Assembly: GCA_902623185.1 (NCBI GenBank)
Contig: CACNSW010000004.1
Span: 1-64,000 of the forward strand
From: an uncultured SAR116 cluster alpha proteobacterium
Lineage (GTDB): Bacteria; Pseudomonadota; Alphaproteobacteria; Puniceispirillales; Puniceispirillaceae
Direction of reading: 5' to 3'
Length of the DNA: 64,000 bases
Part shown: one piece after another, positions 32,726 through 58,526 of the stretch
Numbering within the stretch: position 1 is the stretch's first letter
Layout: the number at the start of each line of letters is the position of its first letter
The notes under the pieces: generated by a model
Told to the model about the DNA's origin: nothing
The model's database searches: none
Seen by the model: the letters and a program-made list of their open reading frames with translations, nothing else
Program-made: the position numbers and the translations under genes

Positions 32726-32800
32726 TGGCTGGGGCGGTAGGATTCGAACCTACGATACACGATACCAAAAACCGATGCCTTACCACTTGGCTACGCCCCA
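32726..32800 (-). tRNA. tRNA-Gln(TTG)
   Basis: RC reads TGGGGCGTAGCCAAGTGGTAAGGCATCGGTTTTTGGTATCGTGTATCGTAGGTTCGAATCCTACCGCCCCAGCCA: complete acceptor/D/T arms, anticodon TTG, encoded CCA. Confidence 0.95.
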
Positions 32801-49918: not shown

Positions 49919-51226
49919 GTGAAAATCGCAATCATCGGCACAGGTTATGTCGGACTAGTCTCAGGTGCGTGTTTTTCGGAATTTGGATTCGAAGTAACAT
50001 GTATCGACAATGATGCAAAAAAAATTGAACAAATCACTAATGGCATTATGCCAATTTATGAGCCAGGACTAGCAGAGTTAGTCTCGCGTAATGTTGATGC
50101 CGGCAGGCTGCATTTCTCTACTGATATTTGCCCAGCTGTGAGTATAGCCGATGCAGTTTTTATTGCTGTAGGAACCCCAATGCGTCGTGGTGATGGACAC
50201 GCTGATCTTACTTATGTCTACGCTGCTGCTGAAAAGGTCGCCACTCACCTCACAGGCTATACTGTGGTGGTTACCAAATCGACGGTTCCAGTTGGCACTT
50301 GTAGGGAAGTAAGCGCAATCATTCGCCGGATCAACTGCGACGCTGATTTTGACATTGCCTCAAACCCCGAATTTCTGCGGGAAGGCGCGGCGATCGCTGA
50401 TTTCATGCGGCCTGATCGGGTGGTCGTTGGCGCAGAAACCAATCGGGCAAGAGACTTGCTACGGACATTGTATAGGCCACTATTTTTGATTGAGACACCG
50501 ATTATTTTTACCGGCCTCGAAACCTCGGAACTAATCAAATATGCTGGCAATGCGTTCCTGGCCGTAAAGATTTCTTACATCAACCAGATGGCGGATCTAT
50601 GCGAGGCGGTTGGTGCGGATGTGCATGATGTTGCTAGGGGCATTGGCCTCGACAAACGCATTGGCAGTAAATTCCTACATCCTGGTCCTGGTTATGGTGG
50701 ATCATGCTTTCCTAAGGATACGCTGGCTCTTGTACGCACTGCACAAGAACACGACATCAACTTGGGCATTGTCAACGAGGTCGTTCATTATAACGACTTC
50801 CGAAAAAAATCAATGGCGCAGAGGGTTATTGACGCATTTGAAGATACAGTTCGAGATAAATCTATCGCGATTTTGGGCCTTGCGTTTAAGCCGGAGACTG
50901 ACGACATGCGAGATAGTCCATCACTTGACATTATTTCGCGCTTGTTAGCTGAGGGTGTTCATATCAAAGCATATGATCCCAAGGCTATGGATGAGGCAAA
51001 AAATTTATTATCAAATTCTGTCCAATTTTCTCAAAGTGCTGAGGAATGTATTGCTGGAACTGACGCAGTTGTATTAGTTACTGAATGGAATGAATTCCGC
51101 GCATTAGCGCCTGCGCATTATCTTTCTGCTATGAGAGGAAACATCATGATTGATTTGCGGAATATATACTCACCTGAAGTAATGTTGGCCGCAGGTTTAA
51201 GGTATGTCTCTATTGGCAGAGCATAA
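49919..51226 (+). CDS. ugd: UDP-glucose 6-dehydrogenase
   Basis: IAIIGTGYVGLVSGACFSEFGFEVTCID ... PGPGYGGSCFPKDTLAL. Confidence 0.97.
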   Translation: MKIAIIGTGYVGLVSGACFSEFGFEVTCIDNDAKKIEQITNGIMPIYEPGLAELVSRNVDAGRLHFSTDICPAVSIADAVFIAVGTPMRRGDGHADLTYVYAAAEKVATHLTGYTVVVTKSTVPVGTCREVSAIIRRINCDADFDIASNPEFLREGAAIADFMRPDRVVVGAETNRARDLLRTLYRPLFLIETPIIFTGLETSELIKYAGNAFLAVKISYINQMADLCEAVGADVHDVARGIGLDKRIGSKFLHPGPGYGGSCFPKDTLALVRTAQEHDINLGIVNEVVHYNDFRKKSMAQRVIDAFEDTVRDKSIAILGLAFKPETDDMRDSPSLDIISRLLAEGVHIKAYDPKAMDEAKNLLSNSVQFSQSAEECIAGTDAVVLVTEWNEFRALAPAHYLSAMRGNIMIDLRNIYSPEVMLAAGLRYVSIGRA

Positions 51227-51259: not shown

Positions 51260-51523
51260 CTAAGGGCATTTAAAAACTCTCCATCGCAAACGAAAGTCTC
51301 GCGTATCTCTGCAGCCAGTTTCCTCATCAAAATAACCCTCTAATTTTGATATGCTCTTAAATTTTGAAGTTTCTTGGACGTAGTGATAGTGCCAAAATCC
51401 GTCGACCTTGGCACAATTGCACTGATTTTTTTCAGGGTGTTGGCTTAGGAGGTGTGCGTTTGCGTTTGCGCACACAAAAACGCTATAAAATATTGATAAA
51501 GCCACAACTTTTTTTGTATCCAT
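51260..51523 (-). CDS. Small secreted Cys-containing protein, function unknown
   Basis: 87 aa with Sec-like signal (MDTKKVVALSIFYSVFVCANANA|HLL); four Cys in predicted mature part; 56 bp downstream of a same-strand sulfotransferase gene. Confidence 0.6.
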   Translation of the reverse strand: MDTKKVVALSIFYSVFVCANANAHLLSQHPEKNQCNCAKVDGFWHYHYVQETSKFKSISKLEGYFDEETGCRDTRDFRLRWRVFKCP

Positions 51524-51579
51524 AATTAAGCACGCCGTTGGTCAAATTTTCATAGAAGTCGAAACCACAATAACGGAAA

Positions 51580-53433
51580 TTATAAGTAGTCATATTTAGC
51601 AATCCATTCATGGGCATGGCCCATACAGCTATCCAAATGCTTTTGATAATTTTTCCATTTCATCCTGGAAGTCTTATAAATTGGTTTCACAACTTGTGAA
51701 TAACTCGGCGTCAGAACTAAACGACCTCGATTTTTTTTATTGTGGTAGTCTAAAATACTATCTTGCCAGTCCAGTTCGAGAAAACTTAACAAAGATTTAA
51801 TTTCGCGTTGCATATCTTCGACTAAATTCTCATATCTTAGCTCGTGGCAATTAAGGTTATACCGTTCCCTGCAGAGATTAAAAACTGCCATACTGTCACT
51901 GTAAAGTTTGGACGCACTTTTGAGACTCAGCATATTTTCCATCGCAGGGTTTAAATCAAAATTCTGCATGTATGAACTTAGTATAGAGTCAAGCGGGTGT
52001 CTCAATGCAAGAATGAATTTCGCATCGGGGTATAGCTTGTTGATAAGCGGCGCTTCATTAAGATTCAGCGGAAGCTTGTCAATGACTAGGGATTTGTGTT
52101 TTTCAGCATAATTTTTGAGTTCATTCTCATAGGCTTTTTTAGCTCTCTCAACTTCTGGCGTTGTCAAATTCTCAATCTCTGAAACAGAGATGTTTTCGCC
52201 CACTAAATCTATGGCGGCATCTATCATTGGTCGTTCTTCAGCAACGAAGATGTCAGAATGAGCACTCAAAATTGTGTCAAGTAACGTTGTTCCTGATCTT
52301 GGGAACCCAACGAGAAATACACAAGGGTTTTGCTCTTTTGGATTTGAATTGAGCGTGCAAGGGCGACCAACTAACTGCGTGAGTTGCTTTTTCCTCGTTG
52401 AAATTTTTTTAGCATAGCTGTTTGAGAGGTTTGATTGAATTTTAGCTAGTTGCTTTGCTTTTTTATTCATTAATTCATATTTCTTAAAAGCATCATCGTA
52501 TTGCTTGAGATTGTGCAAGCATTTAGCAGAAAGTTCTAAATACCGTGTCTGCAAACTGTCTGGAAGTTGGTTTTCATTAATTGACCTAATGAGACATAGG
52601 CACTTAGTGTGATCTTTAAGGTGAAATCTCGCTAGGGCTTCGAAAAAAACTATGCTATCAGACTTGTAAATCCCGGTTTGGTTGCAATTCTCTGCAAATT
52701 CTAATAGCTCGTGATAATTTCCTTTACGATCCAGCAAATCACATAAATATTGTCTGGCGGGTACTGACTCGGGTTGGTGTTTTAGGGCACTTTTGAAAGC
52801 CGCTTCAGACTCTTCTGCTTTTGAGGTTTGATTGAGCATTATGCCAAGTGCGATATAGGCGTCAACATAGTTCGACTTCAATTTTAAGGCTTTTTTTACT
52901 TCTGATATCCCTTCTGCGACTTGACCTAAGTCCCGCAGTGACATGCCAAGATTTAAATGAGCAACGGGATATTTAGGATCTAACTTGAGCGCCTTTTTGA
53001 AAAAACCAACTGAACGTTTATGATCTTTTTTTCTTCGGTAAATGGTGCCCAAATTGTTATTAGCGATAGCATGTGAAGGATCATACTTAATCGCAAATTC
53101 ATAATTGCAAATCGCTTCATCTAAGTTTCCCGCTTTCGCAAGTACATTTCCAAGATTGCAATAAGTTGGTGCGTGCGCTGGATTTAATTTTAGAGCTTCG
53201 GCATATATCTTCAAAGACTGATCAACTTTTCCCATTCCATCATAACAAGCGGCTTGGATATTCAAAATTTGAATAGAATATGGAAATGTTAAACGCAATG
53301 AATTAGCGTTTGATAAAGCCGTTGGATAATTGCCCGCAGAAAGATTCTTGATCAATTCGTTAATAATCCGAGCATCTGGCTCATCTCTGTTTGCGTAAAG
53401 CTCATTTATAACTTTTTTTGCCATGTTTCTCAT
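51580..53433 (-). CDS. TPR-repeat/sulfotransferase fusion protein (copy A)
   Basis: Multiple TPR units then VFLVGFPRSGTTLLDTILSAHSDIFVAEERPMID (5'-PSB) and FILALRHPLDSILSSYMQNF (3'-PB). Confidence 0.92.
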   Translation of the reverse strand: MRNMAKKVINELYANRDEPDARIINELIKNLSAGNYPTALSNANSLRLTFPYSIQILNIQAACYDGMGKVDQSLKIYAEALKLNPAHAPTYCNLGNVLAKAGNLDEAICNYEFAIKYDPSHAIANNNLGTIYRRKKDHKRSVGFFKKALKLDPKYPVAHLNLGMSLRDLGQVAEGISEVKKALKLKSNYVDAYIALGIMLNQTSKAEESEAAFKSALKHQPESVPARQYLCDLLDRKGNYHELLEFAENCNQTGIYKSDSIVFFEALARFHLKDHTKCLCLIRSINENQLPDSLQTRYLELSAKCLHNLKQYDDAFKKYELMNKKAKQLAKIQSNLSNSYAKKISTRKKQLTQLVGRPCTLNSNPKEQNPCVFLVGFPRSGTTLLDTILSAHSDIFVAEERPMIDAAIDLVGENISVSEIENLTTPEVERAKKAYENELKNYAEKHKSLVIDKLPLNLNEAPLINKLYPDAKFILALRHPLDSILSSYMQNFDLNPAMENMLSLKSASKLYSDSMAVFNLCRERYNLNCHELRYENLVEDMQREIKSLLSFLELDWQDSILDYHNKKNRGRLVLTPSYSQVVKPIYKTSRMKWKNYQKHLDSCMGHAHEWIAKYDYL

Positions 53434-53692
53434 TTTGTAAAAGGTTTAAGTTATCTGATTGATAAAAAGTAGTTCCACCTAGAATAAAGGACGATGCTAC
53501 TAAAGTTTTTGACTTAAAAAAATTTAAATCGCTGCACAATCAAAAATGGACATTCTCTTTCAGCCTTTTTTGGGCTGTGGAGACGGTATAATGTTTATCA
53601 AAATGGTATTTTGGATAACAGCTTACTGTCACCTGAAGCTCTGATTTAAGCAGATCAAAAACCTTTAAATTGAAATTTTTAGGAAAAGATTT

Positions 53693-55363
53693 ATGGCAAA
53701 AAAATGGTATCCCGATAGAGAATTGGCTCATTTACATCATCTGCTGAACTCAAATCAGCATAGAGCAATCGTCGCTAATTCTGAAACTTTAATATCAAGA
53801 TTTCCTCTCGATATGCGTGTCTACAACATAATTGGTATGGCATATTTTGCTTTGGGTTCACTAAGTAAGGCTCTGGACATAAATGACCGAGCAATCGTGA
53901 AAAATCCAAATTTTGCTCAGGGCTTTTTTAATCGAGGCGTGATTTTGAGCGCACAGGGGAAAATAGAAGAGGCAAAAAAGTCCTATGAAAAAACCCTTTC
54001 AATTAATCCAAACCATTTCGATGCACTGAACAATTTGGCGAATCTAGTCAAAAAATTAGGAGATTTAAACGCTGCAAAACAACTATACGAAGCGGCGTTA
54101 GTTAAAGATGAGACAAACATAAACTTACTGATTAATTATGGCCTTTTTCTGGCTAGTTTAGACGATTTTTTAAATGCAAAAAAATTTTTTAAAGCTGCTT
54201 TAAATATCGAGCCCAGCAACTCTATAGCTTTGTGTAAATTAGGAAACATTCACGCAATTTGCGGTGAATTTGAGGATGCTAAGTTTTGTTTGGAATCGTC
54301 AATAAATGCTGACCCTGGGAATGCAGAAGCCTTTTTTCACCTTAGCGAGATGGAACATTTTACGTCACAAGATCACAAGCTAAGCATAATGGTAAAAGTT
54401 CATGAAGACTCTAAACGCAACTCATCTGACAAAAAATACATTTGCTTTGCGTTGGCAAAGGCTTACGAGGACATGAAAAAGTATGATAGGGCTTTCAAAT
54501 TTTATTCTGAAGGAAATGCGTTGAGGAAAAGAGAAATAGGTTATGAAGTGCAAGCTGACGAAAAGTTATTCAAAGATATTAAGAAAAGCAACACGTTCCC
54601 AATAAAACCAGTCCAAGTAGAAAACAGTCTTAATCAATGTCCAATCTTTGTAGTTGGATTGCCCCGGTCGGGCACTACTCTAATTGAACAAATACTAGCT
54701 AGTCATAGTCATATTTTTGGTGCAAATGAATTGCTTTTCGCCAACTTGGGAATACAGAAACACAAATTGTTAGAAAAAAAAGCAAATGAAAGTAGTATCA
54801 CTGAGTTTAGACAGTTTTATTTGGAATCAATACGTAGACTAGGTGTAACCGAGCGATTTATAGTTGATAAAATGCCTTTGAATTTTCGGTGGATCGGTTT
54901 TTTGGTATCAGCGTTGCCTGAGAGTAAGATCGTCCATGTGAGACGGGACGGAGTTGCTACATGTTGGTCAATTTACAAAAAGCTTTTTTACGGAAAGGGA
55001 AATGGTTTTGATTGTGACTTACAAGATATTGTTTCTTATTATGGACTTTACAGTGACCTTATGCAGTTTTGGCGAAAGACTTACCCGGGGAGAACGATTG
55101 AAATAAAATATGAGAATTTGGTTTCGGACCCCAAAAAACAAATAGAAGATTTAGTGAGCAATTTAGGCCTTGAAATGGAAAAAGAGTGCTTGAATTTTCA
55201 TGAAACAAATCGTTCTGTCAAAACCGCATCGCTTGCTCAAGTTAGAGTTAAAATATTTGGTAATAGTAACGAAGCTTGGAAACCATTTTTACCCTACCTT
55301 GAAGATTTTGTTGCCGCGATTCGCAAAATTGAGGCTAACGAATCATCAGTCTCAAAATTTTAG
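53693..55363 (+). CDS. TPR-repeat/sulfotransferase fusion protein (copy B, distinct subfamily)
   Basis: TPR units then IFVVGLPRSGTTLIEQILASHSHIFGANEL and IVHVRRDGVATCWSIYK. Confidence 0.92.
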   Translation: MAKKWYPDRELAHLHHLLNSNQHRAIVANSETLISRFPLDMRVYNIIGMAYFALGSLSKALDINDRAIVKNPNFAQGFFNRGVILSAQGKIEEAKKSYEKTLSINPNHFDALNNLANLVKKLGDLNAAKQLYEAALVKDETNINLLINYGLFLASLDDFLNAKKFFKAALNIEPSNSIALCKLGNIHAICGEFEDAKFCLESSINADPGNAEAFFHLSEMEHFTSQDHKLSIMVKVHEDSKRNSSDKKYICFALAKAYEDMKKYDRAFKFYSEGNALRKREIGYEVQADEKLFKDIKKSNTFPIKPVQVENSLNQCPIFVVGLPRSGTTLIEQILASHSHIFGANELLFANLGIQKHKLLEKKANESSITEFRQFYLESIRRLGVTERFIVDKMPLNFRWIGFLVSALPESKIVHVRRDGVATCWSIYKKLFYGKGNGFDCDLQDIVSYYGLYSDLMQFWRKTYPGRTIEIKYENLVSDPKKQIEDLVSNLGLEMEKECLNFHETNRSVKTASLAQVRVKIFGNSNEAWKPFLPYLEDFVAAIRKIEANESSVSKF

Positions 55364-55383
55364 TGTTGTTTTTTTGGAATACA

Positions 55384-55393
55384 CCCCCCCCCC
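55384..55393. repeat. Homopolymeric C10 tract
   Basis: ACACCCCCCCCCCGTTAAGTCT immediately upstream of ATG 55403. Confidence 0.95.
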
Positions 55394-55402
55394 GTTAAGT
55401 CT

Positions 55403-57061
55403 ATGATTTTAAATTACTTGATCGCAGCGGAGTGCTCCTTGAAAAGCGTGAACATAGCCCTAGAAATACCAAAGTCTGACTTTGAAGCTATAGCCCTCTT
55501 GAACAATCGGGGAGAACATCAAGAAGCGCTACAAAAAGTAATTTCTTTGGAACGATTTTATCCAAATTCAACTAATTTAATTCGCCTAAAAGCAAAAATT
55601 CTTACTTTATTGGAACGCTATTCAGAATCTATTGAGATACTTAACAAACTTATAAAATTGCATGAGCATAACAGCCAATTTTTCTATGACCTTGGAGAGG
55701 CTCATTTTTTTGCTGGAGAACATGAAAAAGCTTCTAGAGTGCTCACGCGGCTTTTGAAAAAAGACCCGAATTTCTATTACGCTTATGTTCTGCTAAGCAA
55801 TTCATATAGAAAAATCGGAAAGCATTTTGCTGCAGAAAAGACGCTGCATAAAGCGCGCTTTGTCGATGCTCAAAATCCAATAGCCTATGAGCTATTGTGT
55901 GAATTGTACGAAGATTCTCTTAAATTTGACGCAATTAAGGGCGTCTTAACCGAGGCAAAAGAAAAACTCGTAGATTATACTCCCTCGCTTTTATATTTTG
56001 AGGGGCAACTCTTATTTAAGGCAGGAAATTTTGATGGATGTCTCAAGGTCTTATCCAGCCCAAGTTTCAAAGATTGGAATGTTTCATCTTGGTCCTCAGT
56101 GCTTCAGCTTAAGGGTCGTTGTTACGACAAGTTAGGCAATCATGATTTGGCATTTAGTGTTTTTACAGAAATGAACCAATTACACTTAACGTCAAATCCA
56201 AATTTGGAGGAAGTAGCAGCGAACTATCGTAGGATTTACATACAGCTGAACGGCCAAGTTTTGGACAAACCACCAAAGAAATTTGAAAAGAAATCATACA
56301 AAAAGTTGAAATTTACACCTATATTTTTGGTAGGTTTTCCCCGTTCAGGCACAACTTTACTTGATACAGCATTACGTGGTCACCCAAAATTAAGTGTTGC
56401 GGAAGAATTTAACGTAATGAGTGAGTGTAGGGGTAAATTGAATCCTGATTTTCTCATTAATGACATTGATAGTCTCGAACGCGCCTGCATCGAAGAATTA
56501 AGAAGCGAATACGTCTTAAAAATGTGTTCACTTATCGAAGAAACGCCAAATGAGTTTTTAATTGACAAATACCCGCTGAACATTGTCCACATACCCCTGA
56601 TTTGTAATATGTTTCCAGAAAGTAAATTTATCCTTGCTGTTAGGCATCCACTTGATGTGGCATTAAGTTGTTACATGCAAAATTTTAAAATTAACGGTGC
56701 GATGGCAAATTTGCTTAAACTGGATAGCACTTACGAAATGTATGATCTTGCGATGTCTTTTTTTGATGCATGTACGAAGAGATATAGTATTTCATTCAAA
56801 AGGATACATTATGAGGATATGGTCTCAGACTATAGTGGTACCTTAACTAATCTTTTGAAATTTCTTGAACTAGAATGGGACGATAACTTGGCTGACCATA
56901 CTGTTCATGCAAAAAAGCGGACTACCATAAATACGCCCAGCTATGATCAAGTTGTGCTGCCTATATACGACAATGCCAAATTTCGTTGGCTTAATTACCA
57001 AAAGTACTTAGTTGGCCATAAAACCCTATTGGAGCAATGGATTGATAAGTTTGGTTACTGA
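55403..57061 (+). CDS. TPR-repeat/sulfotransferase fusion protein (copy C, related to copy A)
   Basis: IFLVGFPRSGTTLLDTALRGHPKLSVAEEF, FILAVRHPLDVALSCYMQNFKINGAMANLL; shares the TPSY.QVV.PIY....RW.NYQKYL C-terminal motif with copy A. Confidence 0.9.
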   Translation: MILNYLIAAECSLKSVNIALEIPKSDFEAIALLNNRGEHQEALQKVISLERFYPNSTNLIRLKAKILTLLERYSESIEILNKLIKLHEHNSQFFYDLGEAHFFAGEHEKASRVLTRLLKKDPNFYYAYVLLSNSYRKIGKHFAAEKTLHKARFVDAQNPIAYELLCELYEDSLKFDAIKGVLTEAKEKLVDYTPSLLYFEGQLLFKAGNFDGCLKVLSSPSFKDWNVSSWSSVLQLKGRCYDKLGNHDLAFSVFTEMNQLHLTSNPNLEEVAANYRRIYIQLNGQVLDKPPKKFEKKSYKKLKFTPIFLVGFPRSGTTLLDTALRGHPKLSVAEEFNVMSECRGKLNPDFLINDIDSLERACIEELRSEYVLKMCSLIEETPNEFLIDKYPLNIVHIPLICNMFPESKFILAVRHPLDVALSCYMQNFKINGAMANLLKLDSTYEMYDLAMSFFDACTKRYSISFKRIHYEDMVSDYSGTLTNLLKFLELEWDDNLADHTVHAKKRTTINTPSYDQVVLPIYDNAKFRWLNYQKYLVGHKTLLEQWIDKFGY

Positions 57062-57136
57062 TCCGAAAAGCTTCAAAAGCGGTTAATGAGAGTTTTAGTC
57101 AACAAGGTTGGACTAAAGACCATCACGGCTGGAAAC

Positions 57137-57211
57137 TGGAGCGGGTGAAGGGATTCGAACCCTCGACCCCAACCTTAGCAAGGTTGTGCTCTACCACTGA
57201 GCTACACCCGC
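57137..57211 (-). tRNA. tRNA with tRNA-Gly(GCC)-type body but GCT anticodon (nominal Ser)
   Basis: RC: GCGGGTGTAGCTCAGTGGTAGAGCACAACCTTGCTAAGGTTGGGGTCGAGGGTTCGAATCCCTTCACCCGCTCCA. Complete cloverleaf, U73, encoded CCA, short 5-nt variable loop; anticodon at 57177-57179 is GCT, not GCC. Confidence 0.93.
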
Positions 57212-57392
57212 TTGTTGTCCAAAAAAGCTGATCTTATCAAATATATAAGATCAACATACTCCGTTGGTATAGTCCAATGGCCCATACCATGCAAGAGCCA
57301 AATAAGATTGTGTTGTCAGGTTTGCAATGAATTTGGTGCATCATGCTAGCCTTGGTTTGAAATAGAATTAATTTTGTGGATTTGTTAAGTTT

Positions 57393-58526
57393 TTATCGTT
57401 TTTCTAGCGACTTTTTGAGTCCATCTATAACCAGATGCTGAGTTTCTTCATCTAGGTATGGGTGCATAGGAAGCGATATAACATTTCTGCTTAATTTTTC
57501 TGTGATCTCTAATTTTCCCCGAGCAATCGGGAAACTTTGGTATGGTGGTTGTTGATGCATAGGCACAGGGTAGTAAATTGCAGTAGGGATACCCAGTCCC
57601 TGCATTGTCATGCAGACCTCATCGCGATCGACGTTAGACGGCAGTTTTATGGTGTACTGTGCCCAGCTTGATGTGGCGCCAAGAGCAATTTGCGGAGTTT
57701 CGACTATATTACCAATTAAATCATGATATCGGTCAGCGACCTGTTGGCGCAATGCTAGCTCTTCGTCAAAAATGTCTAATTTGGCATCCAGCACCACGGC
57801 TTGAATGGTGTCAAGTCTTCCAGTCATGCCAATACGAACATTTTGATATTTGTCTTTACCCATGCCGTGAATTCGGCAGGATCGAATTATATCGGCAATG
57901 TTATCATCGTCGGTAAAAACAGCGCCACCATCACCATAGCAACCAAGTGGCTTTGCTGGGAAAAAGCTTGTGCAAGTTACATGTGCCAGAGAGCCAACTT
58001 TTTGGCGGTTCAAACTCGCGCCAAAACTCTGCGCAGCATCATCGATTAGCCACAGATTGTTCATCATAGCATATTTCATCAGTGCCTCGAGATTGGCAGG
58101 TTGGCCAAACAGGCCAACGCTGATAACGCCGACAACCTCCACATTAGCGCTTCTAGCCGCTTCGCGTGCATCGTCAAGCTGTGTGTGGTCAATATTGAAA
58201 GTTGACGGATCTACATCAGCAAAAACCGGGATAGCTCCCATAACAGGCATCACCTCAGCGCTCGCAGCAAAAGTGAAGGAAGGCACAATGACACCCTGCC
58301 CTGGTTTTAAGTCTAAGCCCCGCAAGGCCAATAGTAGCGCATCTGTTCCTGAGGAACAGGAAATATTATGCTTTGCTCCCGACCATTCGGCAAGCCGGGT
58401 CTCTAGCGCCGGGATTTCTGGACCCATGATATATGAGCCATGATCCAGAACAGCTGCAAGGCCCGCGTCAATCTTGCCGCGGACGCGGGCTTGTTGTGAT
58501 TTCAGATCAATGAAGGGAATGCTCAT
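57393..58526 (-). CDS. DegT/DnrJ/EryC1/StrS-family PLP aminotransferase (nucleotide-sugar)
   Basis: IPFIDLKSQQARVRGKIDAGLAAVLDHGSYIMGPEI ... SCSSGTDALLLALRGL ... TSFFPAKPLGCYGDGGAVF. Confidence 0.95.
   Translation of the reverse strand: MSIPFIDLKSQQARVRGKIDAGLAAVLDHGSYIMGPEIPALETRLAEWSGAKHNISCSSGTDALLLALRGLDLKPGQGVIVPSFTFAASAEVMPVMGAIPVFADVDPSTFNIDHTQLDDAREAARSANVEVVGVISVGLFGQPANLEALMKYAMMNNLWLIDDAAQSFGASLNRQKVGSLAHVTCTSFFPAKPLGCYGDGGAVFTDDDNIADIIRSCRIHGMGKDKYQNVRIGMTGRLDTIQAVVLDAKLDIFDEELALRQQVADRYHDLIGNIVETPQIALGATSSWAQYTIKLPSNVDRDEVCMTMQGLGIPTAIYYPVPMHQQPPYQSFPIARGKLEITEKLSRNVISLPMHPYLDEETQHLVIDGLKKSLEKR

Follow-up and report, generated by a model that had tools for sequence, protein, structure and literature searches.

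The tRNA gene encoded on the minus strand at 57137-57211 of the window (the whole stretch of DNA analysed, 64,000 nucleotides long) joins the body of a tRNA-Gly(GCC) to a GCT anticodon; in all likelihood the assembly is in error here or the gene has only just been disabled, and no novel type of tRNA is involved. As to the base itself, we lean towards inferring a consensus error, i.e. that the T at anticodon position 36 was wrongly placed in an ordinary tRNA-Gly(GCC) gene. An earlier note on this locus had headlined a 'chimeric-identity tRNA'; the headline is not supported for a functional molecule, and the explanations that the note listed included sequence error and recent mutation. The gene and its anticodon are:

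57137 to 57211, minus strand: tRNA gene with a tRNA-Gly(GCC) body, a GCT anticodon and encoded CCA, assigned by ARAGORN and by 74/75 identity to syntenic Gly(GCC) genes.
57177 to 57179, minus strand: anticodon GCT, with position 36 at plus-strand base 57177, placed by ortholog alignment.

A complete cloverleaf with encoded CCA on the minus strand, as the earlier note had described, was confirmed by ARAGORN, which labels the gene tRNA-Ser(gct), by direct reading and by the Rfam tRNA model, which scored it at 74.2 bits versus 73.9 for the GCC orthologs. Read from the sequence it is a type I molecule, in which the acceptor strands GCGGGTG and CACCCGC enclose TA, the D stem GCTC/GAGC around AGTGGTA, a single A, the anticodon stem CAACC/GGTTG around TTGCTAA, the 5-nt variable loop GGGTC and the T stem GAGGG/CCCTT around TTCGAAT, followed by U73 (T in the gene) and CCA. 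The glycine determinants G1-C72, C2-G71, G3-C70, U73 and C35 are kept, and the one missing is C36, a glycine identity element (PMC9976931), position 36 being U as assembled. Bacterial SerRS requires a large variable region and G73 (PMC9976931), and neither feature is present, since the long variable arm is replaced by the 5-nt loop and G73 by U73; we therefore agree with the earlier view that serylation is unlikely.

By DNA search, an ortholog was present in nearly all of 40 relatives. Eight of these, all four genus members among them, share 74 of the 75 bases with the window tRNA, and the sole difference lies at tRNA index 35 (position 36), where the window has T for C; on the plus strand, base 57177 is A in the window and G in all ortholog genes of the alignment. 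The assignment of the body to tRNA-Gly(GCC) was thus borne out, and the claim that the single base 57177 makes the anticodon GCU proved exact. More distant orthologs differ from the window tRNA by 2 to 10 bases, and position 36 is C in every one of them; every complete ortholog was called Gly(gcc) by ARAGORN. The order of the flanking genes is conserved as well: on the upstream side lies a DegT-type aminotransferase gene (57393-58526), and on the other side a segment that varies in length separates the tRNA from the gene at 49919-51226. The window tRNA has the synteny, the U73, the encoded CCA and the 5-nt variable loop of the alphaproteobacterial tRNA-Gly(GCC) along with the 74 shared bases, and differs from it in U instead of C at position 36 as assembled; judged by alignment and gene order, it is the syntenic ortholog of the relatives' Gly(GCC) gene. 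That gene is single copy in each of the four genus relatives, and the 28 tRNA genes read in one of them, G003 (96% complete), include a single Gly(GCC) and a single Gly(TCC); two copies were found in the family member G020.

The stretch between the gene at 49919-51226 and the tRNA (51260-57136) differs in length among relatives, measuring 0.5 kb in G003, about 5.9 kb here, 9-11 kb in G001, G002 and G004, and about 22 kb in G017. Three genes lie in it:

51580 to 53433, minus strand: TPR plus sulfotransferase gene.
53693 to 55363, plus strand: TPR plus sulfotransferase gene.
55403 to 57061, plus strand: TPR plus sulfotransferase gene.

It looks like a variable island adjoining the tRNA 3′-end, with no integrase here. 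A mobile element integrating at the 3′-end of the tRNA was rejected as the origin of the base, because no second copy of this 3′-end was found within the window and no integrase was among the five adjacent proteins scanned.

A stem-pattern scan of 61 family genomes, in which any base except C was accepted at position 36, matched only the window itself. The earlier note had set absence from sister genomes, together with absence of expression, against its own claim, and the sister-genome half of this is what was found, the GCT change occurring in no sister genome among the 61. A wider pattern, comprising a GCGGG acceptor stem, a GCT anticodon and a short variable loop, matched a single contig in the GTDB species genomes, a set that may leave out the window's own genome:

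L053, 5466 to 5541, minus strand: tRNA-Gly body with GCT anticodon in a Chlorobium MAG (JABMPC010000068.1), unrelated to that of the window.

In this MAG the GCT-anticodon gene fills the sole Gly(GCC)-type slot found, and the Gly(TCC), Gly(CCC) and Ser(GCT) genes are all normal. As the GCC version of the wide pattern matched 49 of 120 sampled phylum genomes (about 41%), one or two cases in ~35,000 genomes suggest, by a rough estimate, that the GCT change occurs in a few per 100,000 genes, a rate that consensus errors can supply.

The source assembly comprises 1.76 Mb in 87 contigs, is 65% complete and has 22 tRNA genes. The earlier note had proposed listing the Gly and Ser tRNA genes of the genome; the listing yielded a genuine type II Ser(GCT) gene with a long arm (G000:C3:6548-6636) and no other Gly tRNA among the 22 genes, about a third of the genome being missing. 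GGT and GGC make up 817 of 1254 Gly codons (65%) in 55 window genes versus 67-71% in relatives. AGY codons were not enriched at positions where Gly is unanimous in the other genomes (9 of 1029 private changes); this equals 8.7 Gly-to-AGY changes per 1000 private changes versus 3.0 to 33.3 in relatives, in a comparison where low-level misreading would leave no trace. Among the tRNA genes of the window itself, tRNA-Gln(TTG) at 32726-32800 (minus strand) carries A at position 9, against G in the relative compared, G002.

A consensus error would have come from a base call, low coverage or strain mixing in the fragmented assembly, and the living cell would then carry GCC and read GGC and GGU as glycine. 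The error is supported by the otherwise complete identity of eight orthologs over 75 bases and by GCC in all syntenic ones, by the conserved neighbouring genes, by the lack of any other non-C at position 36 in the 61 family genomes, and by a gene that is single copy in the genus in a genome where GGT and GGC still serve most Gly codons; the Chlorobium case is likewise a MAG and likewise concerns the sole Gly(GCC) slot. Counting against the error, the window genes are mostly full length relative to those of relatives, so that the assembly is not obviously error-rich, and the GC of the lineage (0.458 versus 0.49-0.52 in relatives) is AT-shifted, making a real C-to-T change in character. The error reading is also weakened by a second, independent oddity at the gene, a private upstream hairpin that fits a gene leaving use.

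57266 to 57294, minus strand: promoter-like box TTGCAT-N17-TATACC, identified from consensus match and conservation only.
57227 to 57255, minus strand: terminator-like hairpin of 11 pairs (-12.2 kcal/mol) followed by T6, predicted by folding.

This genome shares the promoter-like box with G001, G003, G004 and G017, in each case 51-53 nt upstream of the gene, and the hairpin sits in the interval separating box and tRNA, 15 nt from the 5′-end of the latter. No comparable hairpin precedes the orthologous gene in any of eight relatives or any of 20 further tRNA genes in this genome, and chance alone should yield about 0.2 such sites over the 401 bp that were scanned. The hairpin may serve to terminate the upstream gene; if it acts on the tRNA, it would reduce tRNA expression, fitting a gene that is going out of use.

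Chief among the alternatives is that the mutation is real and recent and disables a Gly(GCC) gene which another copy, in the unassembled third of the genome, has made spare; the mutant tRNA is proposed to be poorly charged, hardly expressed and silenced by the hairpin. We consider this a possible but lesser explanation, which keeps that standing owing to the private hairpin and T6 downstream of a conserved promoter-like box. At 65% completeness and with 22 tRNA genes, the assembly could lack a second copy; two are present in some family members such as G020, and C36, which is lost as assembled, is a glycine identity element (PMC9976931). However, each of the four genus relatives has one copy, all other bases of the tRNA are intact, and the GTDB scan, which took in many genomes with multi-copy Gly(GCC), found no such decayed copy beyond the one MAG.

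That the gene encodes a working missense tRNA, weakly charged by GlyRS and inserting some glycine at the Ser codons AGC and AGU in competition with Ser(GCT), appears improbable. The retained U73, G1-C72, C2-G71, G3-C70 and C35 (determinants in PMC9976931) speak for it, and a precedent exists in an E. coli glycine tRNA mutant whose changed anticodon lets it read aspartate as well (PMC7822408, which cites Murphy and Humayun 1997). Yet C36 is lost, the Gly-to-AGY rate lies within the range of relatives, and the private hairpin speaks against strong expression. Moreover, GGY use is almost unchanged, although these codons would fall to Gly(UCC) once the GCC reader was gone, and E. coli Gly(UCC) by itself translated a reporter containing all four Gly codons only poorly (PMC10853795), so that losing the only GCC reader should be costly. 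The chimeric-identity tRNA, taken as a functional molecule, was thus not upheld, the change being private, a type II Ser(GCT) being present, GGY use being normal and a Gly-to-AGY signal being absent. Slightly less credible still is that the base is real and fixed, the lineage's only Gly(GCC) having become a Gly-inserting reader of AGY with some Ser-to-Gly ambiguity, while another Gly tRNA reads GGC and GGU. Recoding is disfavoured by these codon counts, as GGY use is still normal and AGY is not enriched at relatives' Gly positions, and a change of the genetic code to AGY as Gly was rejected by the same comparison. To our knowledge, editing of U36 back to C has no bacterial precedent. A new, short-armed kind of serine tRNA, for which the anticodon is the single argument, is hardly credible and was rejected on structure, given the missing serine determinants (PMC9976931), U73 in place of G73 and the genuine Ser(GCT) in the same genome.

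Among known systems, the E. coli mutA and mutC missense mutants are, like the window tRNA, glycine tRNAs with an altered anticodon; the mutants emerged within a multi-copy family, decode Asp codons and have a demonstrated action, whereas the window tRNA is known from sequence alone. The isotype/anticodon disagreements flagged by tRNAscan-SE 2.0 (PMC8450103) likewise include a position 36 substitution that places one family's anticodon in the body of a different family; the human gene flagged there carries a change common to several primates, in contrast to the window tRNA, whose change is private to one assembly and falls in a single-copy slot.

With the Chlorobium MAG as a second example, such mismatches occur at a low rate in public assemblies, and an isotype/anticodon mismatch in an incomplete assembly calls for read-level proof. 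A real base in an active tRNA would mean a missense tRNA occurring naturally in a bacterium and an ambiguous reading of serine codons, a surprising outcome.
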